Part shown: positions 1 to 15,276 of the stretch, one piece after another
Layout: every line of letters begins with the position of its first letter
Numbering within the stretch: position 1 is the first letter of the stretch
NCBI GenBank assembly: GCA_937885735.1
Contig: CALABN010000123.1
Location: 1 to 15,276 of the forward strand
DNA: 15,276 nucleotides
DNA from: an uncultured Bacteroidota bacterium
GTDB lineage: Bacteria; Bacteroidota; Bacteroidia; Bacteroidales; SZUA-534
Direction: 5' to 3'
Notes under the pieces: generated by a model
Seen by the model: the letters and a program-made list of their open reading frames with translations, nothing else
Told to the model about the DNA's origin: nothing
Databases searched by the model: none
Program-made: the position numbers and the translations under genes

Positions 1-1
1 T

Positions 2-409
2 GTTATAAACTGGGTGAAGACAAAGTTCACCAAATACCGTAAGGAAATGAAAGGCCTTGAATGGGGCAAAATCTATAACCGTTACAAAGATGCGAAACTT
101 GACGCCAGCGACTTGGAAATCAAGATTGCACAGTTGATGAAGGATAGCGATGTGCAGAAGAAATCAGGCATCTATGAATACGTGCTTGACGGTGAGGAAT
201 ACCATTTAGGCATCAGGGCGTTCGACGACAACACCAAACGTGAGGTTTATGAACGTCAGAACGGCATTTGCAAGATATGTGGCAAGCATTTCGATATTGA
301 ATTTATGGAAGCCGACCACATAACACCTTGGAAAGAAGGTGGCCGAACTATAGAGGAAAACTGTCAAATGCTTTGCCGAGAATGCAATAGGCGAAAGGGC
401 GCAAAGTGA
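2..409 (+). CDS. HNH endonuclease, C-terminal fragment (5' end outside window)
   Basis: The frame is open from the left edge, so this is the last 135 codons of a longer gene. The GTG at 14 is unlikely to be the true start, because V-I-N-W upstream continues in frame. The C-terminal 48 residues form an HNH nuclease module. Counting from the GTG, C86/C89 and C121/C124 are two CxxC pairs that would bind a structural zinc, D101-H102 is the catalytic DH, and N116 and N125 follow. The preceding stretch, including KSGIYEYVLDGEEYHLGIRA, resembles my memory of the segment before the HNH in DUF262/HNH proteins. Some of those belong to GmrSD-like type IV restriction, but that is recall and not a search. 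The HNH call is firm; the parent family and any defence role are inferred. It converges on ispG and ends at a strong hairpin. Confidence 0.8.
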   Translation, partial: VINWVKTKFTKYRKEMKGLEWGKIYNRYKDAKLDASDLEIKIAQLMKDSDVQKKSGIYEYVLDGEEYHLGIRAFDDNTKREVYERQNGICKICGKHFDIEFMEADHITPWKEGGRTIEENCQMLCRECNRRKGAK

Positions 410-438
410 ATAGGCTTTGTGCCAACTGCAAATAAAAA

Positions 439-490
439 CAACCAACGCGAGTGCGTGAAAATGAACACACATTGCGTTGGTTGCTTTTTT
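439..490. terminator. Bidirectional intrinsic terminator between the HNH gene and ispG
   Basis: Perfect 10-bp arms CAACCAACGC (439-448) and GCGTTGGTTG (474-483) enclose a 25-nt loop. On the plus strand the hairpin is followed by GCTTTTTT. Read on the minus strand it is followed by GTTTTTATTT. It can therefore end both the HNH gene (stop at 409) and the convergent ribE-ispG transcript (stop at 560). The remaining bases between 410 and 559 show nothing else. Confidence 0.85.
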
Positions 491-559
491 GGGGAATTTA
501 TGAAGTTGCGCAGATAGTGCAAGTCAGCCTATCGCAAGTTGTTGCCTATAAGCCCGACT

Positions 560-2455
560 CTATTTTCTGTCATTCTCAATCAACTTAAGCAATTCGGCAG
601 GCGCAACCGATTCGTCGATGCCACGTTTCACGAGTGTCTTGCCTTTGTACAGGTTGACTTTTCCTGGTCCTGCGCCAACGTAGCCGTAGTCGGCATCGGC
701 CATTTCGCCAGGTCCGTTGACAATGCAACCCATAACGGCAATCTTAAGCCCTGAAAGATGTGAAGTGACCTTTTTCACTTCGGCCAGACCCTTTTCGATG
801 TTGTACAGCGTGCGTCCGCACGACGGGCAAGCGATGTATTCGGTTTTTGTGTACCGTGCACGTGCCGATTGCAGAATGGTGAACGCGGTTTCGCTCACCT
901 TGCTGACAGGTGTTGGGGCAAAATTGCTCAACCATAATCCGTTAGCCATTCCGTCAATAAAGAAGATTCCGTTGTCGGCAGATGCCTTGAGTTGGAATTT
1001 GGCAAGGTCGGGTTCCTTGTAAATGCTACTTACAACAACTGGCAAGTTTACATTGTTGGCTATCAGTGTATTGAACATTGCTCTCTGCTCGGCAGACTGG
1101 TTTACGCACATTGAACATAAGATAAGCACAACTGTTGGGTCGGCTTTCAGGCGTTCTATTGCTTCTTTGGTGAGTGCATTCAGGCTTACCATAACCCAAT
1201 TGCGTTTCTCTGACTTGTATTTAGCTGTGAGATATGTATTTAATCCATACAGGGGCTCAAAGTTGCTATCTTTTATCCAGGCTTTATAGTCAATCAGGAG
1301 AGAAATGTTTTTTGTCTTGAAATCGGGCAAATCCATTTCGGGCGCGCCGAAATAAAGCACGTCGGGCGAGTGTTTTCCACCGCTGATTGTCATTGTCTCA
1401 AGGTCGAACTTGACGTCGAGCGAGTTGAGAGTGTCAGTTGAAAAATCGGGCAAATCGCAAATTACCAGAGGCTTTTTGTCGTCGAAAGCCGGATTGAGCG
1501 CTGTACTGCGTTTCTGAAAACTGAACGGGTCAAATGCCAAAGGCTCGTTGTAGTTTATTTTCACATTCTTGTCGGCGCTTGCGAAATAGTCGACAAGCAT
1601 TCTTGCGGGCTCAATCTCGTTTGCCGGATTGCCAGTAAGCGACACGCGGACAGTGTCGCCGATGCCGTCGCCCATAAGAGTGCCGATGCCCACTGCCGAT
1701 TTTATTATGCCGTCGGTTCCGGTTCCTGCTTCGGTAACGCCAAGATGGATTGGGAAACTCATCTTCTCGTCGTTCATCTGCTTTGCGAGAAGCCTGTAAG
1801 CCTGAACCATAACAACCGTGTTGCTTGATTTTAACGACACTGCAACATTTTGGAAATCATATTTTTGGCATACGCGCAAAAATTCCATAGTAGCTTCAAC
1901 CATTCCGGCGGGAGTGTCGCCGTAGCGCGACATAATGCGGTCGGACAGTGACCCGTGGTTGGTGCCGATGCGCAAGGCGGTACCGTGTTCCTTGCAAATA
2001 TTGATGAGTGAAAGCAGGCGTTCGTCGAGCTTGTCGAGTTCGGCTTTGTACTCATCGTCAGTGAATTCGAGCGATGTGAAAGTGGCGCGTTTCTCGAGGT
2101 AGTTTCCGGGGTTGATGCGCACCTTGTCGACAAACTGTGCGGTGATGTCGGCGAGTTTTGCATTGAAGTGCACGTCGGCAACAATTGGCAGGCAGTAGCC
2201 ACGTTCCACGAGGCCGTTCTTGATGTCGCGCAATGCATAGGCATCTTTCTCGTCGACAGCTGTAAACCGCACCAATTCAGCGCCAGCGTCAAAAATCTCA
2301 ATGGCCTGTTTTATTGATGCTTCAACATCGTGAGTCGGCGTGTTGGCCATAGACTGCACACGAATGGGATTTTGACCGCCCATTTGCAGTTTTCCGACTG
2401 TAATTTGATGAGTGTTAAATCGTTTGCTATTGAAAGATGAATTTATGATGTCCAT
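560..2455 (-). CDS. ispG: 4-hydroxy-3-methylbut-2-enyl diphosphate synthase (IspG/GcpE), insert-containing form
   Basis: IspG performs the penultimate MEP-pathway step, reductive conversion of methylerythritol cyclodiphosphate to HMBPP, using a [4Fe-4S] cluster in the cytoplasm. The N-terminal TIM-barrel motifs are present: PIRVQSMANTPTHD, AELVRFTAVDE, PIVADVHFNAKLA and VRINPGN. At the C-terminus the cluster ligands are C543, C546 (CPSC), C577 (MGCIVNGPGE) and E584. The C-to-C and C-to-E spacings match the E. coli C273/C305/E312 pattern. At 631 residues it is much longer than the roughly 370-residue E. coli enzyme. The extra sequence lies between the two domains, as in the three-domain form known from plants and Bacteroidetes. 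The ATG at 2455 is one base from the ribE stop (TAA-T-ATG), so the two genes are probably translationally coupled in one operon. Confidence 0.97.
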   Translation of the reverse strand: MDIINSSFNSKRFNTHQITVGKLQMGGQNPIRVQSMANTPTHDVEASIKQAIEIFDAGAELVRFTAVDEKDAYALRDIKNGLVERGYCLPIVADVHFNAKLADITAQFVDKVRINPGNYLEKRATFTSLEFTDDEYKAELDKLDERLLSLINICKEHGTALRIGTNHGSLSDRIMSRYGDTPAGMVEATMEFLRVCQKYDFQNVAVSLKSSNTVVMVQAYRLLAKQMNDEKMSFPIHLGVTEAGTGTDGIIKSAVGIGTLMGDGIGDTVRVSLTGNPANEIEPARMLVDYFASADKNVKINYNEPLAFDPFSFQKRSTALNPAFDDKKPLVICDLPDFSTDTLNSLDVKFDLETMTISGGKHSPDVLYFGAPEMDLPDFKTKNISLLIDYKAWIKDSNFEPLYGLNTYLTAKYKSEKRNWVMVSLNALTKEAIERLKADPTVVLILCSMCVNQSAEQRAMFNTLIANNVNLPVVVSSIYKEPDLAKFQLKASADNGIFFIDGMANGLWLSNFAPTPVSKVSETAFTILQSARARYTKTEYIACPSCGRTLYNIEKGLAEVKKVTSHLSGLKIAVMGCIVNGPGEMADADYGYVGAGPGKVNLYKGKTLVKRGIDESVAPAELLKLIENDRK

Positions 2456-2456
2456 A

Positions 2457-3065
2457 TTAATCTTGTTGAAGTTTGGTTATTTGCGCGATGTATTTTCCGA
2501 TGATGTCGAACTCCAGATTTACGACAGTGCCCACCTTGATGGTGTGGAAATTGGTGTTGTCGAAAGTGTAGGGAATGATGCAGACTTGGAAAGTGTTGCG
2601 AGCAGGACGGCAGACTGTGAGGCTCACGCCGTTGACAGTCACCGAGCCCTTGTCCACAGTCAGGTAACCGCGACTTGCCATTTCCTTGCTGAATTTGTAC
2701 TCGAAAGTAAACACGTGGCTACCTTCGGCATCTTCAACGCTTGTGCATTTGGCAGTGGTGTCCACGTGACCTTGCACAATGTGGCCGTCGAGGCGACCGT
2801 TCATCAGCATTGAGCGTTCAACGTTAACCTTGTCGCCGACCTTGAGCAGGCCGAGGTTTGAGCAGTCGAGTGTTTCCTTCATAGCGGTTACGGTGTAGGT
2901 CCCGTCCTTGATGCGAACCACGGTCAGGCAGACGCCGTTGTGTGCCACACTTTGGTCAATCTTCAGTTCGTTAACAAATGAGCATTTTAGCGTGAAATGC
3001 AGATTTTCCTGGTCTTTTTCGATGCCGACAACTTCGGCAAATTCTTCAACAATTCCTGAAAACAT
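2457..3065 (-). CDS. ribE: Riboflavin synthase, alpha chain
   Basis: Catalyses dismutation of two 6,7-dimethyl-8-ribityllumazine molecules to riboflavin, the last step of vitamin B2 synthesis; the family forms homotrimers. The protein is 202 residues, the usual size, and starts with the family's invariant MFSGIVEE. The two lumazine-binding (Lum_binding) domains are visible as an internal repeat: NGVCLTV (43-49) in the first and VNGVSLTV (144-151) in the second, separated by GHIVQGHVD (94-102). The gene is first in a ribE-ispG pair and diverges from rimP. I found no TTTG/TAnnTTTG promoter on this strand upstream. The leader is A-rich with no Shine-Dalgarno, as usual for Bacteroidetes. Some annotations call this gene ribC. 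Confidence 0.97.
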   Translation of the reverse strand: MFSGIVEEFAEVVGIEKDQENLHFTLKCSFVNELKIDQSVAHNGVCLTVVRIKDGTYTVTAMKETLDCSNLGLLKVGDKVNVERSMLMNGRLDGHIVQGHVDTTAKCTSVEDAEGSHVFTFEYKFSKEMASRGYLTVDKGSVTVNGVSLTVCRPARNTFQVCIIPYTFDNTNFHTIKVGTVVNLEFDIIGKYIAQITKLQQD

Positions 3066-3165
3066 ATTGTCTTATATTTTTGGTTTCAAATAGAAATCCC
3101 CTTAAAAAATCATTCACAAAATACGGAAGCACCAATATGGGCTTCAATAAACCTAATGCGATTTA

Positions 3166-3204
3166 TTTTGCTAGTTTATAATATTTTATACATAAATAGC
3201 AAAA
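3166..3204. repeat. 8-bp inverted repeat in the ribE-rimP divergent region
   Basis: TTTTGCTA (3166-3173) and TAGCAAAA (3197-3204) are perfect inverted arms separated by a 23-nt AT-rich spacer. The repeat lies about 100 bp upstream of ribE and could be an operator or a cruciform, but no known regulator site matches. Chance occurrence in AT-rich DNA is possible. Confidence 0.4.
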
Positions 3205-3262
3205 CGTGTCACGCTACCATAAATCCGACCGCAATTTATTAAAGATTTCCGACCGAACGATT

Positions 3263-3278
3263 ATTCGCGTGAGCGAAT
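3263..3278. repeat. Short hairpin ATTCGC-GTGA-GCGAAT
   Basis: A 6-bp perfect stem closed by a GTGA (GNRA-type) tetraloop lies between the divergent genes ribE and rimP. It has no T-tract, so it is not a terminator. It is too short alone to name an RNA gene. Apart from this hairpin, the inverted repeat at 3166 and the rimP promoter and leader, the 356-bp intergenic region shows nothing I can name. Confidence 0.35.
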
Positions 3279-3325
3279 TAAGAAACCGATCTGCCATTGG
3301 TGCAATACAATGCTGAAATATTTGA

Positions 3326-3356
3326 TTTGCAGATAAAATATTATTTTATAATTTTG
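3326..3356 (+). promoter_or_regulatory. Bacteroidetes-type promoter for rimP-nusA-infB
   Basis: TTTG at 3326-3329 and TAATTTTG at 3349-3356 match the Bacteroidetes primary sigma factor consensus (TTTG, 19-21 bp, TAnnTTTG), with a 19-bp spacer. Transcription would start a few bases after 3356, giving a leader of about 60 nt before the rimP ATG at 3422. The match is complete at every consensus position. Confidence 0.8.
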
Positions 3357-3383
3357 TATCGTTTTTATGGGGTAAATAATTCC

Positions 3384-3410
3384 AGGGGACCACAAAGTCC
3401 CCTGTTTTAT
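3384..3410 (+). promoter_or_regulatory. Leader hairpin upstream of rimP (possible attenuator)
   Basis: AGGGGAC (3384-3390), a 6-nt loop CACAAA and GTCCCCT (3397-3403) form a perfect 7-bp GC-rich stem, followed by GTTTTATT. It sits between the predicted transcription start and the rimP ATG, inside the leader. It resembles a weak intrinsic terminator. It could attenuate the operon, be bypassed by NusA-dependent elongation, or protect the mRNA 5' end. Confidence 0.55.
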
Positions 3411-3421
3411 TACATTAAACT

Positions 3422-3886
3422 ATGATAGAAAAAAAGCAAATAGAGGACATAGTTGCCGGCAAGATTGCGGACACCGACCTGTTTCTGGTAGATGTGAAGA
3501 TTGACACGCAAAACAACATTACCGTTGTGCTCGATTCGCCCGAAGGCATCTCGATAGACGCTTGCGTAGTGATGAGCCAGTACATTGAGTCGCAACTCGA
3601 CCGCGAGAGTGAGGATTTCGCTCTCGAAGTTTCATCGCCAGGCGTGGGACAACCACTCAAGGTGTTGCAACAATATACCAAGATCCTGAACGGCACAATT
3701 GAGATGTTGCTCAACAATGGCCAGAAAATCAACGGCATACTGCGCGATGCAAATCAGGAAGGCATCCTTGTGGAGTATGAGGCAAAGGAAAAGCCCGAAG
3801 GGGCAAAACGTCCTGTAAAGGTGACAAAGACAGAACCATACGCATTCAGCGAAATAAAATCAGTTAAGGAAACAATAATCTTTTAG
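3422..3886 (+). CDS. rimP: Ribosome maturation factor RimP
   Basis: RimP binds the 30S precursor and helps assemble the 3' domain of 16S rRNA. The 154-residue product has the normal length. The N-terminal alpha/beta domain contains FLVDVKIDTQNNITVVLDSPEGISIDAC, and the central motif FALEVSSPGVGQPLK (EVSSPG) is the family signature. The C-terminal Sm-like barrel follows (LNGTIEMLLNNGQKINGILRDA). The ATG at 3422 has no Shine-Dalgarno but is preceded by the A-rich TTACATTAAACT, normal for Bacteroidetes. It is the first gene of rimP-nusA-infB, an order conserved across bacteria, and lies 11 bp before nusA. Confidence 0.96.
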   Translation: MIEKKQIEDIVAGKIADTDLFLVDVKIDTQNNITVVLDSPEGISIDACVVMSQYIESQLDRESEDFALEVSSPGVGQPLKVLQQYTKILNGTIEMLLNNGQKINGILRDANQEGILVEYEAKEKPEGAKRPVKVTKTEPYAFSEIKSVKETIIF

Positions 3887-3897
3887 CATAATCAGAA

Positions 3898-5130
3898 ATG
3901 GAAAATTTGAACCTAACCGACACATTTTCAGAGTTCAAGGAACTGAAAAACATTGACCGCCCTACAATGATGAGGGTTTTGGAAGACGTGTTCAGAAGCA
4001 CATTGGTAAAACAATACGGCTCTGACGAGAATTTCGACATTATCATCAACATTGACAAAGGCGACTTTGAAATTTGGCGCAACCGCGAGGTTGTTGAAGA
4101 CGCTGATTTGGAAGATCCAAACAGGCAGATATCTTTAACCGAGGCAAAACAGATTGACGCCGACTATGAAGTAGGCGAGGAGGTTTCCGATGAAGTGAAA
4201 ATGAAGGATTTCGGACGTCGTGCAATATTGACACTTCGCCAAAACCTGACTTCGCGCATCCTTGACCTTGAAAAGGACCAACTCTATGCCAAGTACAAAG
4301 ATCGTATCGGCGAGATAATTACAGGCGAGGTTTACCAAGTATGGAAAAAGGAGATAATGATTATCGACGACGAGGGCAACGAACTGATTATGCCAAAGCA
4401 GGAGCAGATACCAAGCGACTATTTCCGCAAGGGTGACAGCGTCCGCGCCGCAGTAGTGCGCGTTGAGATGCGCAATGCAACCCCGCTTGTGATATTGTCA
4501 CGTACAAGCCCAATATTCCTTGAGCGCCTGTTCGAACTTGAAGTTCCTGAAATATTTGACGGCCTTATCACCATAAAGAACATAAAGCGTATTCCAGGCG
4601 AACGTGCAAAAGTTGCCGTAGAGTCGTACGACGAGCGTATCGACCCGGTTGGCGCTTGCGTTGGCATGAAGGGCGCACGTATTCACGGCATTGTCCGCGA
4701 GTTGCGCAACGAAAACATCGATGTAATCAACTATACAAACAACCTGTCGTTGTACATTACACGTGCACTGAGCCCGGCAAAAGTTTCCCAGATCAAGATA
4801 AACGAAGAGACAAAGAAGGCCGACGTTTACTTACAGCCAGACCAGGTGTCGCTGGCAATTGGCAAGGGTGGCTCAAACATCAAACTTGCAAGCCAGTTGA
4901 CAGGTTATGAAATCGATGTCTATCGTGAGTCGGCTGACGAGGAAGATGTCGACCTTGAAGAATTTGCAGACGAAATAGACGGATGGGTTCTTGACGCACT
5001 CAAGGCTATTGGTTGCGATACCGCCAAGAGTGTTCTGGAAATCACACCAGAAGAACTTGTACGCCGTACCGACCTTGAGGAAAACACTGTCAACGACGTC
5101 ATCAAGATACTCAAGGCTGAATTTGAATAA
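3898..5130 (+). CDS. nusA: Transcription termination/antitermination factor NusA
   Basis: NusA binds RNA polymerase and nascent RNA, modulating pausing, intrinsic termination and antitermination. The 410-residue protein has the short Bacteroidetes-like architecture. An N-terminal RNAP-binding domain (about 1-130) is followed by an S1 domain (about 138-201, starting GEIITGEVYQVWKKEIMI). KH1 has the loop GMKGAR (256-261) and KH2 has GKGGSN (322-327). A single acidic/helical tail (about 345-410) contains a helix-hairpin-helix-like segment (LKAIGCDTAKSVLEITPEEL). The two acidic repeats of E. coli NusA are not both present. The gene lies 11 bp after rimP and 57 bp before infB. Because an intrinsic-terminator-like hairpin precedes the operon, feedback through NusA is conceivable but not shown. 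Confidence 0.97.
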   Translation: MENLNLTDTFSEFKELKNIDRPTMMRVLEDVFRSTLVKQYGSDENFDIIINIDKGDFEIWRNREVVEDADLEDPNRQISLTEAKQIDADYEVGEEVSDEVKMKDFGRRAILTLRQNLTSRILDLEKDQLYAKYKDRIGEIITGEVYQVWKKEIMIIDDEGNELIMPKQEQIPSDYFRKGDSVRAAVVRVEMRNATPLVILSRTSPIFLERLFELEVPEIFDGLITIKNIKRIPGERAKVAVESYDERIDPVGACVGMKGARIHGIVRELRNENIDVINYTNNLSLYITRALSPAKVSQIKINEETKKADVYLQPDQVSLAIGKGGSNIKLASQLTGYEIDVYRESADEEDVDLEEFADEIDGWVLDALKAIGCDTAKSVLEITPEELVRRTDLEENTVNDVIKILKAEFE

Positions 5131-5187
5131 CTGACAATCAACCAAGACATCAACCTTTGATAAAATAAACAAACTCAAAAGAAGCAA

Positions 5188-8052
5188 ATGACAGATTACA
5201 AACCATTACGATTAAGCAAAATAGCACGTGACTTCAACGTAGGTGTGGGCACTGTGCTTGATTTCCTGCAGAAGAAAGGCATTTCGGCAGACGACGGACC
5301 TAACACCAAGATAGAGTATGATGTTTACAAAATCTTGTTGAAGGAGTATGCGCCTGACCTGAAAGCAAAGGAGGAATCGGAAAAGATAGAACTGAACGCA
5401 ATGCGCGCTAAGAAGGAATCGATATACGCCGATGACGAGTTTGCAGAGAAAAATCCGGCAGAAAGTCCGGAGGCGAAGATGGAGAAGCCATCTGTCAAGG
5501 AAGAGTTTGTTGAGACACCAAAAGAGGAAGTCAAAGTAAAGGTTGTAGGTAAAATAGACTTGAACAAGAAGCCTGAAAAGAAACCCGAACCAGAACCAAA
5601 GAAGGAACAAACTCAGCAACAGCCAAGAGTTGAAGCACGTCGCGAGGAGCCACGTCAGCAAAGACCTGAGCCAGAACTAATCCGCACCAAGGTGGATCCG
5701 GTAAAGGATGTGAAGATTTTGGGCAAGATAGAGTTGGATTCACTTAACACAAAGACCCGTCCTGCCAAGAAATCGAAAGAGGAAAAGGCACGCGAACGCA
5801 AGGAACGCGAAAATCAGTTCAAGAAACCGCAACAGCAACAGGGACCTGTTCAGCAGAATCGTCAGGAGCGTGTTAAAAACGATGAGCCTGAATTCATCAA
5901 TACAAAGGTTGACAAATTGCAAGGCCCTAACGTTGTGGGCAAGATAGACCTTGACGACCGCAGATATTCTGGCGGCGTACAGGGCGGCGACGAGTTCGGC
6001 AAGAAGAAGAAACGCAAGCGCATACAGAAAGACCGCGTCGATGTTGGCGTGCCAATGGACAACGGCAAGCAATCGGGCGGAAAGAACTTCGACAAGCACT
6101 CGCAGAAAGGGAATCCGAAGGCATCTTCGAAATTCCTGAAAAAAGAAGTAAATGAGGAAGATGTACAGAAACAGATAAAAGACACATTGGCACGCTTGAC
6201 AGCGCCAAAAGGAAAGAGTAAGACCAGCCAACACCGTAGCGAGAAACGCGAGGATGTCAGGATGAAGTCTGAGGAGGAAATGGAGCGTCAAGAGGCAGAA
6301 AAGATGGTTCTGAAGGTTACCGAATTCGTATCGGTAAACGAGTTGGCGACAATGATGAACGTATCGGTCACCGAGGTTATATCCACCTGTATGAACTTGG
6401 GCCTGTTTGTGTCAATCAACCAGCGTCTGGATGCTGAGACAATGGCGCTTGTTGCCGATGAGTTCGGCTACAAGATGCAGTTTGTAAGTGCCGATTTGCT
6501 CGATTCCATAACCGAGGAAGAAGACAAGGAGGAGGATATGACATCGCGTCCGCCGATTATTACCGTGATGGGACACGTTGACCACGGCAAGACATCGTTG
6601 CTCGACCATATCCGCAATGCAAACGTGATTGCAGGCGAGGCCGGCGGCATCACCCAGCACATTGGTGCCTACAGCGTAGTGCTCAAGAACGGAAAGACAA
6701 TAACATTCCTAGATACGCCAGGTCACGAGGCGTTTACCGCAATGCGTGCCCGTGGTGCACAAATCACAGACATTGTTATCATTGTGATTGCCGCTGACGA
6801 CAGCATAATGCCACAGACCATTGAGGCCATCAACCACGCACAAGCGGCAGGCGTTCCTATCATTTTCGCAATAAACAAGATAGACAAGCCAGCCGCAAAT
6901 CCGGAAAAAATTAAGGAGGCATTGGCAAATATGAACCTGCTTGTTGAAGAGTGGGGTGGCAAGTATCAGTCGCAAGACATATCGGCAAAGAAAGGCCTGA
7001 ATGTCGACAAATTGCTTGACAAGGTGCTTCTTGAGGCAGAAATGCTCGATCTGAAGGCAAATCCAAACAAGGCTGCAACAGGAACGGTGATAGAGTCGTC
7101 GCTTGACAAGGGTAGGGGCTACGTAACAACGGTGCTCGTACAAAGCGGCACGCTCAAAGTTGGCGACATTGTCCTTGCAGGCAACTATACAGGCCACGTA
7201 AAGGCTATGTACAACGAGCGTAACGGCAAAATAGATGTTGCAGGTCCTTCAACGCCGGCAATGATATTGGGCTTGAACGGTGCTCCACAGGCAGGTGACA
7301 AGTTTAATGTCGTAAGCAGCGACAAGGAGGCTCGCGACATTGCCAACCGTCGTACACAGTTGGCGCGCGAACAGGGCTTACGCACTCAAAAGCACGTCAC
7401 GCTTAACGAGTTGGGCCGCCGTATTGCAATAGGCAACTTCCAGGAACTGAACATCATTGTAAAGGCCGATGTTGACGGTTCGGCAGAGGCTTTGCAGGAT
7501 TCGCTTGAAAAGTTGTCGACACCAGAAATTCAAGTCAATGTCATTCACAAGGCAGTTGGCCAGATTTCAGAGTCGGATGTTACATTGGCTGCCGCTTCAG
7601 ACGCAATCATCGTCGGTTTCCAGGTGCGTCCGTCAGTAGATGCCCGCAAGTTGGCCGAGCGTGAGCAGGTTGATATCCGCATGTATTCAATCATCTACGA
7701 TGCAATAAACGAGGTGAAGGACGCAATGGAAGGAATGCTTTCGCCAGAAATCAAGGAGGAAGTAATTGGCACTGTTGAGGTGCGTGAGGTCTTCAAGATT
7801 TCGAAAGTCGGCTCCATTGCAGGCTGCTTTGTCCGTGACGGTAAAGTCAAACGTACATCGAAAGTGCGTGTCATTCGCGACGGCATTGTGGTTTACACAG
7901 GCGAACTTGGCTCACTCAAACGATTCAAGGATGATGCCAAGGAAGTGCTTACCGGTATGGAGTGCGGCTTGAACATTGACAAGTACAACGACATCAAGGT
8001 TGGCGACGTTATAGAGGTTTACGAGGAAACAGAGATTAAGCGTACGCTGTAA
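5188..8052 (+). CDS. infB: Translation initiation factor IF-2
   Basis: IF-2 is the GTPase that places fMet-tRNA on the 30S subunit and promotes 50S joining. Its 954 residues comprise an IF2_N domain (about 1-52, [21 protein letters not shown]) and a long charged low-complexity linker (about 55-370) rich in K, E and Q. A second IF2_N-like segment begins near 375 ([22 protein letters not shown]). The G domain follows with G1 GHVDHGKT (462-469), G2 in GGITQHIG, G3 DTPGHE (509-514), G4 NKID (563-566) and G5 SAK (599-601). Domains II to IV complete the C-terminus. The linker carries three copies of the short motif GKI(D/E)L, at 121-125, 179-183 and 251-255. The gene is last in the operon and is followed by a terminator at 8112. 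Confidence 0.98.
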
Positions 8053-8111
8053 TAGTTTAGTGCCTAGAGCCTGGTGCACAGGCGTTGGAGGCATAAGAGA
8101 TAATTGACAAT

Positions 8112-8145
8112 AAAGGCAATGGACTTTGGTCTATTGCCTTTTTTT
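8112..8145 (+). terminator. Intrinsic terminator of rimP-nusA-infB
   Basis: AAAGGCAAT (8112-8120) pairs with ATTGCCTTT (8133-8141), with an inner GAC/GTC pairing and a TTTG loop. The stem runs directly into a T-tract. It lies 60 bp after the infB stop. Confidence 0.9.
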
Positions 8146-8211
8146 GTTTGAGTGTGGAGTTTTTCAATTACAGTTAACAATTCAGAATTCACAATTAATA
8201 ATTAACAAATA

Positions 8212-8301
8212 TTGCAATGTTGTAGAGACGGTGTGTACACCATCTTGAAATATTACATGGTAAATAATTAATGGAAAACTCACGGTAATTTATGTTAAAA
8301 G
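8212..8301. repeat. Dispersed palindromic element, copy 1, with downstream tag
   Basis: The hairpin AGACGGTGTGTACACCATCT (8226-8245) is preceded by GCAATGTTGTAG. About 35 bp later comes the tag CACGGTAATTTATGTTAAAA, ending at 8300. The same arrangement recurs at 8552-8658, with diverged sequence between hairpin and tag. It looks like a MITE- or REP-like non-coding repeat. Confidence 0.6.
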
Positions 8302-8305
8302 AACA

Positions 8306-8518
8306 GCCACTGAAAGTGGCCGACAATCATAACCGTGGGTTGAACGCAGTGAAACCTACGGATTAAAACCCTACATAAAGCCAACCTGAAAGGTTGCACT
8401 AATTGTATATTATGTATTTGCCTCACTTTTCTTTGGAGAAAAGTGACAAAAGAACTTAGCCACAGTGATGCTTCGCTGAAAAACGCTACGGAATGGTGTA
8501 AAGGCAATTGCCTTTGCA
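8306..8518. repeat. Repeat A, copy 1 (213 bp, serial hairpins)
   Basis: This copy is highly similar to 12899-13114. It consists of successive hairpins: GCCACT-GAA-AGTGGC; an interrupted CCGTGGGTT / AACCTACGG stem around GAACGCAGTGA; CAACCT-GAA-AGGTTG; CACTTTTCT-TTGG-AGAAAAGTG; and the perfect 16-bp palindrome AAAGGCAATTGCCTTT at 8500-8515. Two of the hairpins share a GAA loop. Only the region between the second and third hairpins has diverged. It looks like a dispersed structured element and not a gene. Confidence 0.8.
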
Positions 8519-8551
8519 ATTGATAATGGATAATTGACAATGAAATATTAT

Positions 8552-8658
8552 TGACGCAACGTTAGTAGAGATGGTGTGCACACCGTCTATACAAAACGTT
8601 GTAAAACAATTAATTCCTGAAATATTATTGGCGATTCACGGTAATTCGTGTTAAAAAA
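8552..8658. repeat. Dispersed palindromic element, copy 2, with downstream tag
   Basis: Outer arms CAACGTT (8557-8563) and AACGTTG (8595-8601) enclose a 20-base hairpin at 8569-8588, centred on the perfect palindrome GGTGTGCACACC (8573-8584). The tag CACGGTAATTCGTGTTAAAA follows and ends near 8656. This is the most symmetrical of the three copies. Confidence 0.65.
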
Positions 8659-8661
8659 ACA

Positions 8662-8700
8662 TTGACGCATTGCTGGTACAGACAGTGCATGCCGTCTTTA
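8662..8700. repeat. Dispersed palindromic element, copy 3 (degenerate)
   Basis: TTGACGCATTGCTGGTAC leads into AGACAGTGCATGCCGTCT (8680-8697), with AGAC/GTCT ends pairing around a GCATGC core. It matches the lead-in of copy 2 (TTGACGCAACGTTAGTAG). It lies just past the stop codon of the TPR gene at 8713 and may act as that gene's 3' hairpin. Confidence 0.5.
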
Positions 8701-8712
8701 CATATCTATCTA

Positions 8713-9873
8713 TTATTCAATGACTACGACTTTCTCGTCTTCAGATTGTCCGCCTTCAAAAAACTCATCTTCGGTAATCTGCTTCAGACGGTACGCTACG
8801 TATTCCAAATGGTTTTTGTTGGCTTTGGTCTTTTCCCATTTTGAATCGACAATGACCTGCAACCATTTCTTTTCCATTTCGCGGTCTTTCAATTCGCCGT
8901 AAGCTACAACCATACTATATTGCGTTTCAAACGTGATATTGTACGCCAAACCCTTTTCGAGCATCTTGATTTGGTTGCGCAGGCAAATTTCACGCTTCAC
9001 TGAATCGGCATAATATTTATGACTGTAGGCACAATAAAAATCGGCACTGATGCCATACAGTTCAGCCATTGACGCAGAATCGGCCTGGCAAAGAAGGATG
9101 CCTGTATCGACATAATCCAAAGTTTCATCGCGGTGTTCGGTGGCGATGCAAACCTTGGCCAACGATTTCACAAGCCCTACATTGCCGAACATCGACTTCT
9201 CGCAAGCCATCAACAAATAGTCGTAGGCTTTATTGGGAATCTTGCAAGCCTCATACGTCTTACCAATATAATAGCAAAGTGAGGCCGACCAGTCACCATT
9301 TTTTTCCGCATCAAGAAATAGTTCGAGGGCTCTATAAAAGTCCTTCGAAAAGTAATACGAAACACCTAACAGCTTGTTAATTATTTGATTGGTAGAGTCA
9401 ATGTTATAGTATCGGTTGCCATAGTACAATGCAGAATCGACATTCTTGTCGTTGTTGAAGAATGTCATTAACTGTGATGTGGCAGTCACGTCCAAAGGGT
9501 TGATTTCCACAATCTGCTTGGCACACTCTATGATGACGGAATCTTCAACCTCCATTCGATTCAGACAATTTAACTTGAGTTGCAAATCCTGGTAAACGGC
9601 TGTGTCACGCGTCAATGTATCGATGAGCGACAAGCAGTTGTTGTATTGACCGCGCTTGAAGTAACATTGCGCCATTCTGCGCATTACTGTGTCGCTTGGT
9701 TCAACCTCATAGGCCTTCTGATACCAAAGCAACGAATTGTAGGTGTCGTTCATACGAAGGCACGAATCGCCACGGTTGACATACTTTGCCGACTCTGAAT
9801 TTATGGCAGATGCATTATTGCAAAATATTGACAACAAGGTAGATATCCCAATAAATAAGATTGTTGCTTTCAT
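8713..9873 (-). CDS. Exported tetratricopeptide-repeat protein
   Basis: The 386-residue protein starts with a signal peptide: MKATILFIGISTLLSIFCNN, with probable cleavage after ASA at 21-23. The mature part is helical TPR-like repeats. Clear units run from about 28-61 (SCLRMNDTYNSLLWYQKAYEVEPSD) and 62-95 (MRRMAQCYFKRGQYNNCLSLID). Later ones contain LLGVSYYFSKDFYRALELFLDAE and YYIGKTYEACKIPNKAYDYLLMACE. The C-terminus is acidic (EDEFFEGGQSEDEKVVVIE). No enzyme motif is visible, so its role is probably protein binding in the periplasm or at the outer membrane. It is the last gene of the BlaI/M56 locus, 75 bp after the short TonB-like gene. Co-transcription is plausible, though a hairpin at 9900 lies between. 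The specific function is not recognised. Confidence 0.85.
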   Translation of the reverse strand: MKATILFIGISTLLSIFCNNASAINSESAKYVNRGDSCLRMNDTYNSLLWYQKAYEVEPSDTVMRRMAQCYFKRGQYNNCLSLIDTLTRDTAVYQDLQLKLNCLNRMEVEDSVIIECAKQIVEINPLDVTATSQLMTFFNNDKNVDSALYYGNRYYNIDSTNQIINKLLGVSYYFSKDFYRALELFLDAEKNGDWSASLCYYIGKTYEACKIPNKAYDYLLMACEKSMFGNVGLVKSLAKVCIATEHRDETLDYVDTGILLCQADSASMAELYGISADFYCAYSHKYYADSVKREICLRNQIKMLEKGLAYNITFETQYSMVVAYGELKDREMEKKWLQVIVDSKWEKTKANKNHLEYVAYRLKQITEDEFFEGGQSEDEKVVVIE

Positions 9874-9899
9874 AAAATTTAGGATATAAGATTATTATT

Positions 9900-9922
9900 C
9901 AAGGCCCGAAAAGCGAGCCTTG
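9900..9922 (-). terminator. Hairpin after the short TonB-like gene
   Basis: CAAGGC (9900-9905) and GCCTTG (9917-9922), with an inner CG/CG pair, form a hairpin downstream of the gene at 9949-10680. On the minus strand it is followed by AATAATAATC, not a T-run, so termination is probably weak and read-through into the TPR gene likely. It closely matches the hairpin at 10739. Confidence 0.5.
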
Positions 9923-9948
9923 ACATAAGACAAAATGTATTTCTAATT

Positions 9949-10680
9949 CTACTTAAATAATTGAACAGGAACGGTATATGAGACATTTACAGCCACACCG
10001 CGTTGTGAGCCTGGCTTCCATTTTGGCATTTTGCTCACCACGCGCAAAGCCTCATTGTCAAGTGCCACACTGCCTGAACTACGTGCAATGCTCAAATTCG
10101 CAACGTTTCCTGTTGAATCAATCACAAAAGAAACAAATGGCTTGACTTCTTCCTTATTCCCTTTGGCATCTTCTGGATAGTTTACGTTTTCAGCAATGTA
10201 TTTTGCCAATGCCGTTTCTCCTCCTGGAAATTCCGGCATCTTTTCGACAATTACAAATACAACACCATCAACCGACCTTTCACTCATAGGAGCTGTAGGT
10301 GTTAAAGGGTGCTTTCCATACAACTCCTTTTTTTGACCTTCAGAAAGAAGTTGGTCAGAATATTTGTCGGGGTCTGTCCAATACTCGGCCTTGCCCCAAT
10401 TCTCATAATCATTGTCAGTGGCTGGCCTTATTGTACCATTTGGCTCCTTGACACACAAAGACGGAACGTCGTTTTCGTCGTACTTGATGAATAGGATACG
10501 ATGCGTATTGTCGTTCAACACTTTTTTTAAATCTTCCCTGTCGGATACATAGGTGAATTTTTCACTGTCCGTGCCATTGGTGGCTGACGATTGTGCAACT
10601 GCATTCATTGAAAGTGCTACAAACGGAAGGGCGAAAAGCGCCTTGGCCACTGCCCTGATTGATGAGTTCTTGAATGACAT
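9949..10680 (-). CDS. TonB C-terminal-domain protein, short paralogue of the adjacent M56 fusion
   Basis: The 243-residue product has an N-terminal hydrophobic segment, AKALFALPFVALSMNAVAQ (12-30), acting as signal peptide or anchor. A middle linker (about 31-135) precedes a TonB_C-like domain (about 148-242, MPEFPGGETALAKYIAENV to WKPGSQRGVAVNVSYTVPVQ). Along its whole length it aligns with residues 258-470 of its upstream neighbour. The alignment includes the SSxxAVAKxLxALPxVA segment, which in the neighbour is the last membrane helix. It therefore looks like a duplicated C-terminal half that lost the peptidase. There is no proline-rich spacer of a true energy-transducing TonB, so a sensory or decoy role in the periplasm is more likely than TonB function. 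Start: ATG at 10680. Confidence 0.88.
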   Translation of the reverse strand: MSFKNSSIRAVAKALFALPFVALSMNAVAQSSATNGTDSEKFTYVSDREDLKKVLNDNTHRILFIKYDENDVPSLCVKEPNGTIRPATDNDYENWGKAEYWTDPDKYSDQLLSEGQKKELYGKHPLTPTAPMSERSVDGVVFVIVEKMPEFPGGETALAKYIAENVNYPEDAKGNKEEVKPFVSFVIDSTGNVANLSIARSSGSVALDNEALRVVSKMPKWKPGSQRGVAVNVSYTVPVQLFK

Positions 10681-10734
10681 ATTTTATGGTTTTCAGATAA
10701 TAACGCTAAAAATAAACAATTATTGCCGGATTTT

Positions 10735-10765
10735 AAAACAAGGCCCGCCAAAAATGCGAGCCTTG
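10735..10765 (-). terminator. Intrinsic terminator-like hairpin after the M56 gene
   Basis: CAAGGC (10739-10744) pairs with GCCTTG (10760-10765), plus an inner CGC/GCG and an A-rich loop. On the minus strand it is followed by TTTTAAAA. It lies between the M56 gene (stop at 10796) and its short paralogue (start at 10680), so it could reduce expression of the downstream genes. Its stem and flank match the hairpin at 9900. Confidence 0.6.
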
Positions 10766-10795
10766 GCACAATACAAAACTTTGGTTTTAATTCAA

Positions 10796-12289
10796 TTATT
10801 TTTCCATCTCATATTCTTCCATCTCAATAATTTCAATTGGCGCAGCTGCTTCTCTTGGCAGAGAATCTGGTCGTCCTAATTCAAATTTGATTGGAATTGC
10901 ATATGATACATTTACAGGAAGACCGCGTTGCATTCCTGGCTTCCATTGTGGCAACGACTTGACAACACGCATAGCCTCGTTGTCAAGACTCTCTATACCC
11001 GTACCTCTGGCTAACTCAACATCACGGACATTGCCTTCCGTATCAATTACAAATCTCACAAAAACCTTACCTTGTTCCTTTTTAGCCTTGGCATCTTCAG
11101 GATATATAACATTTTCGGCAATGAATTTCCGCAAGCCCAATTCACCATCTGGGAATTCAGGCATTTCTTCAACTATAGCAAATACTTCATCTTCGGGTAT
11201 CTCCCTATTTTCCAATGGTATTGAAATGCCCGCTCCGCGGTTATCATATATTTCTTCTGCCGTTGCCAATCTGACAGTTCCGTCGGCCTCTTTTATAAGA
11301 AGCACCTCATTGCCGTCTTTATCGCGACCAATAAATTTCCCTTTTGCAAAGGAGTTGTATAATTCCTGGTCATAAGTGAACTCTGAATTACCAAAATTAT
11401 TACCTTCGTCGTTTGAACAAGAAGAGTTTGCAAATGCAATCATAGCAAATGCGACTACTGGGAGGGCGTAAAGCACCTTGGCTACAGCCCAACCTGATGA
11501 TTTTTTACGTGACATCATAGTTATTCGATATTTTAGTTTACTGTGATTAAAGCTGTTGGCAATTGAATACCACTTCCCGCCAGCAGCTTTTTTAATTAAT
11601 AATATTTGATATTGTTTTGCATTAATGCCTGAATCAAGAACAGCCTTGTCGGCTTCGTACTCGTGAACTGTGGCCAACTCCTGGCGCATAAGCCAAATGG
11701 CAGGATTGAACCATTGCAAGCAGCAAAGGGCATCGCATACTAGCAGGTCGATGCTATGGCGATAACGGATATGCGCTTGCTCGTGAGTGAGCACTTCGTT
11801 TCTATTCTCATCATAATCAGCGCGACTGATGATAATGTACTTTATCCAACTGAATGGAGCCTGCTCGCCATCGACTATTGTCAGGACATTGCCGTTGTCG
11901 AGCTTCACACGCTCGCCGTTTCTAATCAGCTGCAAAACCCTGACTATGGAAACCAATAAGCGCAGAATGCAGACTGCAATGCCCGCAAAATAAACGAATA
12001 CCGCAACCGAACGCCAGTCAATGGCCACGCTGTGTGTTTCTGCACCTCCGACAATAACCTCCTCGAGCATTATCATCGACTGCGCAATGGCGTAATTGTC
12101 ACCACCTTCGGCAACCGTGCGGCTGATTGTAAGCCCGCAAAAAGGCAGGACAAACGACAGCGCCACAGATGCGAGCAGTATGATGCGGTTTACGCGCAAA
12201 AATGTCTCGCGACTCATAAACGACTTGTAAAGCAAGTAGAATGCTATCAGAAAGACAGCGACCTTGAGACCATATATAATTGATTCCAT
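10796..12289 (-). CDS. BlaR1-like M56 metallopeptidase fused to a TonB C-terminal domain
   Basis: A 497-residue membrane protein. Hydrophobic helices lie at about 5-22, 33-52, 93-121 and 268-287. The cytoplasmic zinc-peptidase domain between the third and fourth has HEQAH (169-173) and ELATVHEYEADKAV (204-217), the M56 HExxH plus downstream glutamate. NSFNHSKLKYRITMM (245-259) is the usual end of that domain. After the fourth helix comes an extracytoplasmic linker and a TonB_C-like domain (about 376-470, MPEFPDGELGLRKFIAENV to WKPGMQRGLPVNVSYAIPI). In BlaR1/MecR1 the peptidase is activated by an outer sensor and relieves BlaI repression. Here the penicillin-binding sensor is replaced by TonB_C, so beta-lactam sensing is not indicated. 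It starts 24 bp after the BlaI-like gene, as expected for a repressor-antirepressor pair. Confidence 0.93.
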   Translation of the reverse strand: MESIIYGLKVAVFLIAFYLLYKSFMSRETFLRVNRIILLASVALSFVLPFCGLTISRTVAEGGDNYAIAQSMIMLEEVIVGGAETHSVAIDWRSVAVFVYFAGIAVCILRLLVSIVRVLQLIRNGERVKLDNGNVLTIVDGEQAPFSWIKYIIISRADYDENRNEVLTHEQAHIRYRHSIDLLVCDALCCLQWFNPAIWLMRQELATVHEYEADKAVLDSGINAKQYQILLIKKAAGGKWYSIANSFNHSKLKYRITMMSRKKSSGWAVAKVLYALPVVAFAMIAFANSSCSNDEGNNFGNSEFTYDQELYNSFAKGKFIGRDKDGNEVLLIKEADGTVRLATAEEIYDNRGAGISIPLENREIPEDEVFAIVEEMPEFPDGELGLRKFIAENVIYPEDAKAKKEQGKVFVRFVIDTEGNVRDVELARGTGIESLDNEAMRVVKSLPQWKPGMQRGLPVNVSYAIPIKFELGRPDSLPREAAAPIEIIEMEEYEMEK

Positions 12290-12313
12290 AATAGTAGTGT
12301 TTTAGGTTGTGGG

Positions 12314-12676
12314 CTATTTTTCTTCAATTTGTCGAATCAGTTCCTTTAGTTCGTCAACGGACAGGTCTTCTTCGCCAACCAAAGCCGAAACGGCGGTCTT
12401 GTACGAACTCTTGAAATACTTTCCGATAACGCTGCGCAATGTCTGCTTGCCGAAATCGTCGCGGCTGACAGCGGCAAAATACTGATAGGTTGGGCCGTAC
12501 GACTTGTGGTCGACATAGCCTTTTGCCTCCAAAGCACGCACCATTGTTGACACTGTATTGAAGTGAGGTTTTGGTTCGGGATAGAGTTCAATCAAGTCGC
12601 GGACAAACATTGGACCATTTTCCCAAAAGAAATTCATTATCTCCTCTTCCTTCTTTGTAATCTTTTCCATAATCAT
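12314..12676 (-). CDS. BlaI/MecI/CopY-family transcriptional repressor
   Basis: The 120-residue winged-helix protein has an N-terminal DNA-binding domain. EKITKKEEEIMNFFWENGPM begins it, HFNTVSTMVRALEAKGYVDH (38-57) covers the recognition helix and wing, and YGPTYQYFAAVSRDDF follows. A helical C-terminal dimerisation region (about 72-120) completes it. Family members bind palindromic operators as dimers and are inactivated after activation of the partner M56 peptidase. The partner is encoded 24 bp downstream. Either ATG at 12676 or 12670 could be the start; the second gives MEKITKKEEE, the more usual beginning. Three operator-like dyads upstream (12698-12760) suggest autoregulation. The natural signal and any other targets cannot be read from sequence. 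Confidence 0.93.
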   Translation of the reverse strand: MIMEKITKKEEEIMNFFWENGPMFVRDLIELYPEPKPHFNTVSTMVRALEAKGYVDHKSYGPTYQYFAAVSRDDFGKQTLRSVIGKYFKSSYKTAVSALVGEEDLSVDELKELIRQIEEK

Positions 12677-12697
12677 CTTGTTTTTGACAATGCTAAT

Positions 12698-12760
12698 GTA
12701 ACTAAAAAAATATTACGTACAACTATTTTTTACAGTTACTCTAATATTTTTTATAGTTGA
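12698..12760. promoter_or_regulatory. Three phased operator-like dyads upstream of the BlaI-like gene
   Basis: Three related sites were found: GTAACT-A7-TATTAC (12698-12716), AACTAT-T5-ACAGTT (12721-12737) and TAATAT-T5-ATAGTT (12742-12758). Read in one orientation they align as variants of TAATATTTTTTAYAGTTAC, the first being inverted. Their centres (12707, 12729, 12750) are 22 and 21 bp apart, two helical turns. They lie 22-82 bp from the ATG, where a repressor would block transcription. The assignment to BlaI is inferred from position and symmetry. Confidence 0.65.
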
Positions 12761-12898
12761 CAAGTCGTTTTTCTTATATTAAGAATGCATATGTGATTGA
12801 TTATCATTTAGAATTACAAAAAATAGACGTTGAATTTTATAGCCTCTCGACCAATCAAAATGTAATAAAACTACGCATTGTTGGAGGAAACGTGTCGT
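12761..12898. other. AT-rich spacer, no feature recognised
   Basis: Between the operator region and repeat A copy 2 there is no credible reading frame, hairpin or promoter consensus. I also found no TTTG/TAnnTTTG pair on the minus strand to serve the BlaI-like gene, so its promoter remains unplaced. Confidence 0.4.
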
Positions 12899-13114
12899 GC
12901 CACTGAAAGTGGCCTACAATTATAACCGTGGGTTGAACGCAGTGAAACCTACAGAATGTGTGAACACACGAGGAAACAACCTGAAAGGTTGCACTAATTG
13001 TATTTTTATGTATTTGACTCACTTTTCTTTGGAGAAAAGTGACAAAAGAACTTAGCCACCATGATGCTTCGCTGAAAAACACTACGGAATGACGTAAAGG
13101 CAATTGCCTTTGCA
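12899..13114. repeat. Repeat A, copy 2 (216 bp), truncated or ended by the join
   Basis: It has the same hairpin series as 8306-8518, from GCCACT-GAA-AGTGGC to the palindrome AAAGGCAATTGCCTTT (13096-13111) and the following GCA. Similarity to copy 1 stops at 13114, where copy 1 continues ATTGATAATGG and this copy continues into tilS coding sequence. Confidence 0.8.
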
Positions 13115-13117
13115 GAT
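13096..13117. other. Probable chimeric junction, Bacteroidales to Clostridia
   Basis: To the left is repeat A of the Bacteroidales genome; to the right the sequence is in frame with TilS at once. GCCTTTGCA (13106-13114) fits both sides: it belongs to the repeat and also reads A-F-A before D-K-H-D-L-L-P-P-G, a plausible TilS N-terminus. The exact breakpoint is therefore hidden in a short shared word. GC content, codon choice and ribosome-binding-site style all change here. Confidence 0.8.
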
Positions 13118-14437
13118 AAACACGATCTATTGCCGCCCGGTACATCGGTGCTGGTCGGTTTATCCGGCGGTGCGGACTCGATGGCACTGCTCCACTGGCT
13201 CATCCATTGTCCGGAAAGGCAATGGACGGTCAGCGCCGTCCACATCCACCACGGCATCCGTGGGGAGGAGGCGGATGCCGACGAGCGGTTCGTGCGGAAG
13301 CAATGCAACGCGTGGGGCGTTCCGCTCACCGTGCTGCGGGAGGATGTGCCGGCGCTTGCCGCCGCCGCCCACCGCGGCTTGGAGGAAACCGGGCGACAAG
13401 TGCGCTATGAGGCGTTCGAACGGGAGCGGGAGCGGTGCGGTGCCGCGGTCATCGCGACCGCGCATACCGCCTCCGACCGCGCAGAAACGGTGCTGATGCA
13501 TCTGGTTCGCGGTTGCGGCATCGGCGGCTTGGCGGGCATTCCGCCGCGGCGCGGGCATATTGTGCGCCCGTTGCTGACCTGCACCCGCGAGGATGTGGAA
13601 AGGTATTGTGCTTTACACGCAATCCCGTTTGTGCAGGACAGCACCAACCGGGATATGACCTACACCCGCAATGCGATGCGTCTGCGTGCGTTGCCGATGC
13701 TGGAGGAGATCGCTCCCGCCGCGACCAAGGCGCTGTTGCGCATGGCGGATGCGGCGGCGGCGGATGACGCCTGCCTATGTGATATAGCGCGGCAAGCGTT
13801 GGATGCGGCGGCTTGCGGTGAAAACCGCTACCGCCGGGACGTTTTTTCCGCGCAGCCCCGCCCGATTGCGGTGCGGATGCTCCGGCTGGCGCTGGAGAGG
13901 GTGGATTGCCGCTCGATGGAGGAGCGACACGCCGATCTTTTGCTGGCACAGATCGCCGGAGACGGCGGCGCGGTATCGTTGCCGGAGGGATTTGCTGTAA
14001 AGGTCAATGACTGTACAGTCGAGGTTTTGCCTGAAACGGCGGTGCTCCTGCTGCAGGAGGCGTTGGCGGTCGTGCCGCCCTGCCGGTTTTCCTTCGCAAA
14101 TCAACAGATTTTTCTGAATGTTGTCACAAAAGAGCAAAATGTTCATAAATTGTTCTCGAAATATGTGATAGACTATGATAAAATACAATCTGGTTTGATC
14201 GTTCGCTGTCGGCAAAGCGGCGATCGGTTGCATCCCGCCGGTCGCGGTGTCGGAAAAACGCTCAAGGAATTGTTGGCAGAAGCGTCTGTTCCGACAGGAC
14301 GGCGCGCCGCTTTTCCGGTGCTGTGCGATGCCGACGGTATCGTGCTTGTGCCCGGTATCACCTGCGATGAGCGGGTGCGCACCGATGAGCATACCAAACA
14401 TTTTCTTGTATGGATCACGGAGAATGAGCCACGATAA
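13112..14437 (+). CDS. tilS: tRNA(Ile)-lysidine synthase TilS, 5' end lost at the junction
   Basis: TilS uses ATP to attach lysine to C34 of the CAU-anticodon tRNA-Ile, changing its identity from Met to Ile; it is essential in most bacteria. The PP-loop ATP motif SGGADS lies at 13163-13180. It is followed by HIHHGIRGEEADADERFV, LEETGRQVRYEAF and the DSTNRDMTYTRNAMR motif typical of the family. The C-terminal domain ends with CRQSGDRLHPAGRGVGKTLKEL and VLVPGITCDERV. Homology appears to extend upstream of the TTG at 13130 (D-K-H-D-L-L), and the frame stays open into the repeat, so that TTG is not the natural start; the first few codons are missing. GC-rich codon use differs sharply from the genes to the left. 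With ftsH it forms a clostridial gene order. Confidence 0.93.
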   Translation, partial: ADKHDLLPPGTSVLVGLSGGADSMALLHWLIHCPERQWTVSAVHIHHGIRGEEADADERFVRKQCNAWGVPLTVLREDVPALAAAAHRGLEETGRQVRYEAFERERERCGAAVIATAHTASDRAETVLMHLVRGCGIGGLAGIPPRRGHIVRPLLTCTREDVERYCALHAIPFVQDSTNRDMTYTRNAMRLRALPMLEEIAPAATKALLRMADAAAADDACLCDIARQALDAAACGENRYRRDVFSAQPRPIAVRMLRLALERVDCRSMEERHADLLLAQIAGDGGAVSLPEGFAVKVNDCTVEVLPETAVLLLQEALAVVPPCRFSFANQQIFLNVVTKEQNVHKLFSKYVIDYDKIQSGLIVRCRQSGDRLHPAGRGVGKTLKELLAEASVPTGRRAAFPVLCDADGIVLVPGITCDERVRTDEHTKHFLVWITENEPR

Positions 14438-14457
14438 AGCGATGGCTTTTATCATAG

Positions 14458-15276
<819 letters not shown>

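Follow-up and report, generated by a model that had tools for sequence, protein, structure and literature searches.

A contig of Bacteroidales origin very probably joined by artefact to a clostridial tilS-ftsH segment at the end of an interspersed repeat

We infer that the window, by which we mean the whole stretch of 15,276 nt that was analysed, is very probably an artefactual chimera. Its last 2.2 kb are clostridial and were most likely joined accidentally to a piece of Bacteroidales chromosome at a short, probably common sequence. Two compositional and taxonomic blocks meet at a breakpoint, where tilS has lost its start and where the end of a repeat overlaps a stretch fitting the TilS profile. 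The first-pass annotation had claimed an abrupt join between a Bacteroidales contig and a clostridial tilS-ftsH segment, and this join is real in the sequence according to relatives, composition and codon usage. The features are as follows.

1..13095: Bacteroidales (Salinivirgaceae-like) chromosomal block, assigned from NCBIfam, Pfam, relatives of the M56-TonB protein, composition and codon usage
Genes of this block: HNH endonuclease end (2-409), ispG (minus strand), lumazine-binding/riboflavin synthase-like gene (minus strand), rimP, nusA, infB
Further genes of this block, all on the minus strand: TPR protein, TonB protein, M56-TonB, BlaI/MecI-like repressor
8306..8518: interspersed repeat, copy 1, running on into ATTGATAATGG...; blocks 94-97% identical to copy 2
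12899..13114: second copy of the interspersed repeat, whose ungapped match to copy 1 runs out at 13,114
13096..13111: perfect 16-bp palindrome AAAGGCAATTGCCTTT, which occurs in each repeat copy (in copy 1 at 8,500-8,515)
13097..13114, plus strand: candidate shared word of 18 nt, fitting the repeat as well as a clostridial tilS at codons -22 to -17; the join would lie somewhere inside
13115..14437, plus strand: clostridial tilS with its initial codons missing; both TIGR02432 and TIGR02433 exceed their cut-offs; stop at 14,435-14,437
14518..15276, plus strand: clostridial ftsH, with TTG start at 14,518 and Shine-Dalgarno sequence AGAAGGAG at 14,501-14,508, cut off by the contig end
Candidate shared word at the join: AAAGGCAATTGCCTTTGCA

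The genes from position 1 to about 12,700 had the appearance of ordinary Bacteroidales genes. Using NCBIfam, IspG (TIGR00612), RimP (PRK02001), NusA, IF-2 and the TonB C-terminus were found above their cut-offs, while the long-form IspG model PRK02048 was the top match yet below its own (724.9 vs 886). PRK02048 and PRK02001 are presumably Bacteroidetes-type models. Every BlaI/MecI and BlaR1 model scored below cut-off, and those gene names are therefore loose. Three further left proteins, the HNH endonuclease end at 2-409, the lumazine-binding protein and the TPR protein, were recognised by Pfam. The M56-TonB protein was 92% identical to one protein; among its 120 relatives listed, the names were seven Salinivirgaceae (a family within Bacteroidales), two Bacteroidales and two without organism. 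A search of 61 clostridial relatives with M56 gave distant matches in 30 (top E 3.5e-15), and none of the 8 pattern stretches found in viral contigs was a relative of M56-TonB. Within 9949-12289, the M56 peptidase-TonB fusion and the adjoining shorter TonB-domain protein have stretches of 70-74% identical DNA in common, which suggests a tandem partial duplication next to the BlaI/MecI-like repressor.

The right block begins with a tilS that is recognisable as tRNA-Ile lysidine synthetase by both of its parts, the N-terminal ATPase domain with its SGGxDS motif (SGGADS at 13,163) and the C-terminal domain. Scores were 176.8 bits for TIGR02432 (cut-off 93.6) and 40.4 for TIGR02433 (cut-off 20.2). 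The frame is open from 13,076, just after an in-frame TGA at 13,073, through to the stop. As the first-pass annotation had stated, tilS has no start of its own: no in-frame ATG, GTG or TTG was found between the TGA at 13,073 and the TTG at 13,130, and an intact gene with a common upstream start was rejected on this ground. An ATT is present at 13,103 and may serve as a rare start. TTG 13,130 is not preceded by any Shine-Dalgarno match. The strong Shine-Dalgarno sequence which that annotation had placed at the join is AGAAGGAG at 14,501-14,508; it lies 1.4 kb downstream and belongs to ftsH. With its first codons missing and TTG 13,130 lacking such a match, the gene does not have the form of a functional or intact transferred gene. 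Likewise, of the two genes said to be truncated at the repeat, only tilS is, and ftsH runs off the end of the contig at 15,276. The ftsH fragment comprises the first 253 codons, and TIGR01241 matches residues 24-253 at a score below the full-length cut-off, as expected for a fragment.

A separate search for the relatives of tilS and ftsH had been proposed, and its outcome agrees with a clostridial origin. Among the 120 TilS relatives listed, three carried names, each 'Clostridia bacterium', and the closest non-self relative was 57% identical. Nineteen of the FtsH relatives listed were named with an organism, and 17 of these were clostridial; the other two, from Caulobacteraceae and Chloroflexota, aligned over 38-39% of the query only. 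The TilS cluster at 90% identity consisted of one sequence on one contig of 15,276 nt, from which the window appears to be a complete contig. A TilS scan of genome contigs found 19 pattern stretches, from which 6 loci were obtained, with best segment identities of 29-43%. TilS matches were found in 291 of 297 genomes of the family of genome G001 (top E 3.3e-81, 41% identity), and three of 394 genomes of its order passed 1e-82 (best 42% identity). In the class of G001, none of 391 genomes passed 1e-90, a limit that G001 itself would fail. The misses in order and class say nothing on the join itself.

The clostridial tilS-ftsH order claimed at first holds in outline, but in its less common form. 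Among the loci examined the usual order is tilS-hpt-ftsH, that of the clostridial cluster of these genes, and the window resembles this cluster in having tilS and then ftsH on the same strand and differs in having no hpt in between (14438-14517). The intervening gene, which we take to be hpt, was recognised in the loci by its phosphoribosyltransferase motif, which was found between tilS and ftsH in 16 of the 17 tilS loci examined. The exception, L006, has tilS directly before ftsH, the same as the window. This count left out L007, L008 and L029, which are the same places as L001, L002 and L006, and the ftsH match in L011 was short (30 residues, E 2.5e-6). A second join at the missing hpt was considered and rejected, since tilS keeps matching its family as far as its own C-terminus and L006 is also without hpt.

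The claim that the DNA turns GC-rich at the join was borne out, GC being 0.416-0.475 across six left blocks and 0.586 in the right block. A two-model scan with order-3 context put the change point at 13,117 (within 3 nats, 13,100-13,133) and lower-order models put it at 13,130-13,132; the likelihood gain of these scans is inflated because the models were trained on the flanks. The left-right tetranucleotide comparison suggested earlier also separated the two sides. In k-mer distance, for k from 1 to 4, the right block lay beyond every one of 108 overlapping, equally long left segments (0/108 as deviant), which agrees with the change-point break, while z-score correlation separated them weakly (left-right 0.22-0.33 vs left-left 0.27-0.53). 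Codon usage gave the same picture: tilS fits the usage of ftsH better than that of the left genes, ftsH fits that of tilS better, and all nine left genes tested by leave-one-out fit left usage better. No drift of the right block towards the left was seen in the change-point, k-mer or codon tests. Named relatives, composition and codon usage thus all indicate that the two sides come from different organisms.

The left block ends within a repeat. The claim that copy 2 of this repeat runs up to 13,114 was confirmed, as 12,899-13,114 repeats 8,306-8,518, the two consisting of 94-97% identical blocks with a gapped stretch in between. Copy 2 equals copy 1 through GTAAAGGCAATTGCCTTTGCA, and ungapped identity stops at GCA 13,112-13,114; past this point, a gapped alignment has a 3-nt gap and then GATAA, also common to both copies. 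Both copies are intergenic and made of small palindromes, e.g. TCACTTTTCTTTGGAGAAAAGTGA and AAAGGCAATTGCCTTT, and copy 1 is flanked by a 26-nt inverted repeat, 92% complementary (8220-8245 and 8569-8594). The copy-2 stretch had no match in plasmids or phages and none in Rfam, and in viral contigs neither the repeat-core pattern nor the 20-nt junction pattern was matched. It is possibly an undescribed Bacteroidales interspersed repeat. A join at copy 1 was rejected because the genes on either side are closer in codon usage to the left block than to tilS, a test that is blind to a join between two similar Bacteroidales genomes.

To characterise the tilS side of the join, a profile was built from 119 TilS relatives. 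The motif SGG[AG]DS was present in 117, the other two were dropped, and 115 with ordinary N-termini were used. Residue -22 (AAG, 13,097) is Lys in 113/116 TilS rows, residue -19 is Ala in 56/116 and residue -18 (13,109) is Phe in 109/116. Ala at residue -17 is uncommon (5/116), which counts against a native tilS word. Further upstream the frame has Val at -23 (4/116, with Asp or Glu in 97/116) and Asn at -25, where Leu, Phe, Met or Ile stands in 113/116. Summed upstream from -17, the profile score reached its maximum exactly at 13,097 and dropped beyond it. Of 25,746 six-codon windows taken from the left side, only 2 reached the same score, and the first four codons alone were equalled by 22 of 25,758, windows with stops being scored as misses. 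The TilS frame, earlier said to be recognisable from about 13,112, is indeed recognisable across the join, and the profile already fits from 13,097.

Since the TilS profile fits from 13,097 and repeat identity extends to 13,114, the two would overlap by about 18 nt. The repeat end comes from the alignment of the two copies, and the presence of the word in the clostridial parent is predicted from the TilS profile. Most simply, these ~18 nt would already have belonged to the clostridial tilS, and the word would then be common to both parents. The 9-base word GCCTTTGCA proposed in the first-pass annotation does lie at the breakpoint, and the shared word is probably longer than that, overlapping the perfect palindrome at 13,096-13,111; this probable longer word on a 16-bp palindrome is what the present analysis adds. 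The word may extend to 21 nt if Val at -23 is native to tilS. Between two 3-Mb genomes of uniform composition, ~260 words of 18 nt and ~4 of 21 nt are expected to be shared by chance. Such a word is therefore expected raw material in any complex metagenome, from which the window presumably comes.

According to these results, the following course of events is proposed. A Salinivirgaceae-like chromosome piece would stop within a copy of its interspersed repeat, the end of which would have ~18 nt, centred on the 16-bp palindrome, in common with the tilS start of a clostridium unrelated to it. The two would then be linked through the shared word during assembly, most likely by a small-k graph join, or by template switching during amplification or library preparation. 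On this view the join would have been made in vitro or in silico, outside any cell. The proposed word is near a small assembler k-mer and inside the 2-21 nt of amplification chimeras; for a k=21 join it is 2-3 nt too short, unless Val at -23 is native or the native repeat continues with matching bases. A small-k assembly join is favoured over amplification, although the two are not separable here.

Genuine horizontal transfer, in which a Salinivirgaceae chromosome gained a piece of clostridial DNA with tilS-ftsH through microhomology at the repeat, seems very unlikely. The truncated tilS would then be a pseudogene or would use a weak start at TTG 13,130. The sequence is continuous with the TilS frame open across the join, that start would retain the SGGADS motif, and the contig has an HNH endonuclease end at its left extreme, though 12.7 kb off the join. 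However, tilS is beheaded exactly at the repeat, TTG 13,130 is without a Shine-Dalgarno match, and no shift of the right block towards left composition was seen. The 12 proteins scanned included no transposase or integrase, the contig stops 2.2 kb beyond the join, and the TilS cluster is confined to one contig. It is scarcely probable that the join was present in a cell because a palindromic repeat end, being prone to recombination, captured clostridial DNA by ~18 nt of microhomology. A single lineage of mixed composition, with both blocks native to one genome, can practically be dismissed; apart from the two blocks being contiguous, only the weak separation by tetranucleotide correlation speaks for it, and the named relatives of the two sides belong to different phyla while their composition and codon usage differ.

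An artefactual chimera, the reading resembling an assembly chimera that the first-pass annotation had put forward, is supported because the two sides have named relatives in different phyla, both composition and codon usage change where the repeat ends, tilS is decapitated there and the two parents probably share a word of ~18 nt. The join thus looks like an artefact and not gene transfer or a real biological feature. Its value lies in quality control, as this contig binned as Bacteroidales would report a false clostridial tilS-ftsH transfer. Finding where a gene-family profile still fits inside a neighbouring repeat gives a read-free estimate of the word shared at a chimeric join.

Two kinds of known chimera can be compared with this contig. 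K-mers common to different genomes are a source of chimeric contigs via assembly graphs, as described in a review (PMC7299287). The window is like such inter-genome chimeric metagenome contigs in that it joins two unrelated genomes at a repeat, of which it holds two copies, and at a short word that both probably have; it differs in that the word shared by the parents is here a predicted one. For multiple displacement amplification (MDA), PMC1855051 reports 2-21 complementary nt at more than 70% of junctions, a range that includes the short complementary stretch proposed here, as would fit an MDA or PCR template-switch chimera. The same study gives inverted sequences as more than 85% of rearrangements, with intramolecular events favoured. 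MDA is therefore no obvious source of a between-species join, and the direct join seen here differs from the mostly within-molecule inversions of MDA.
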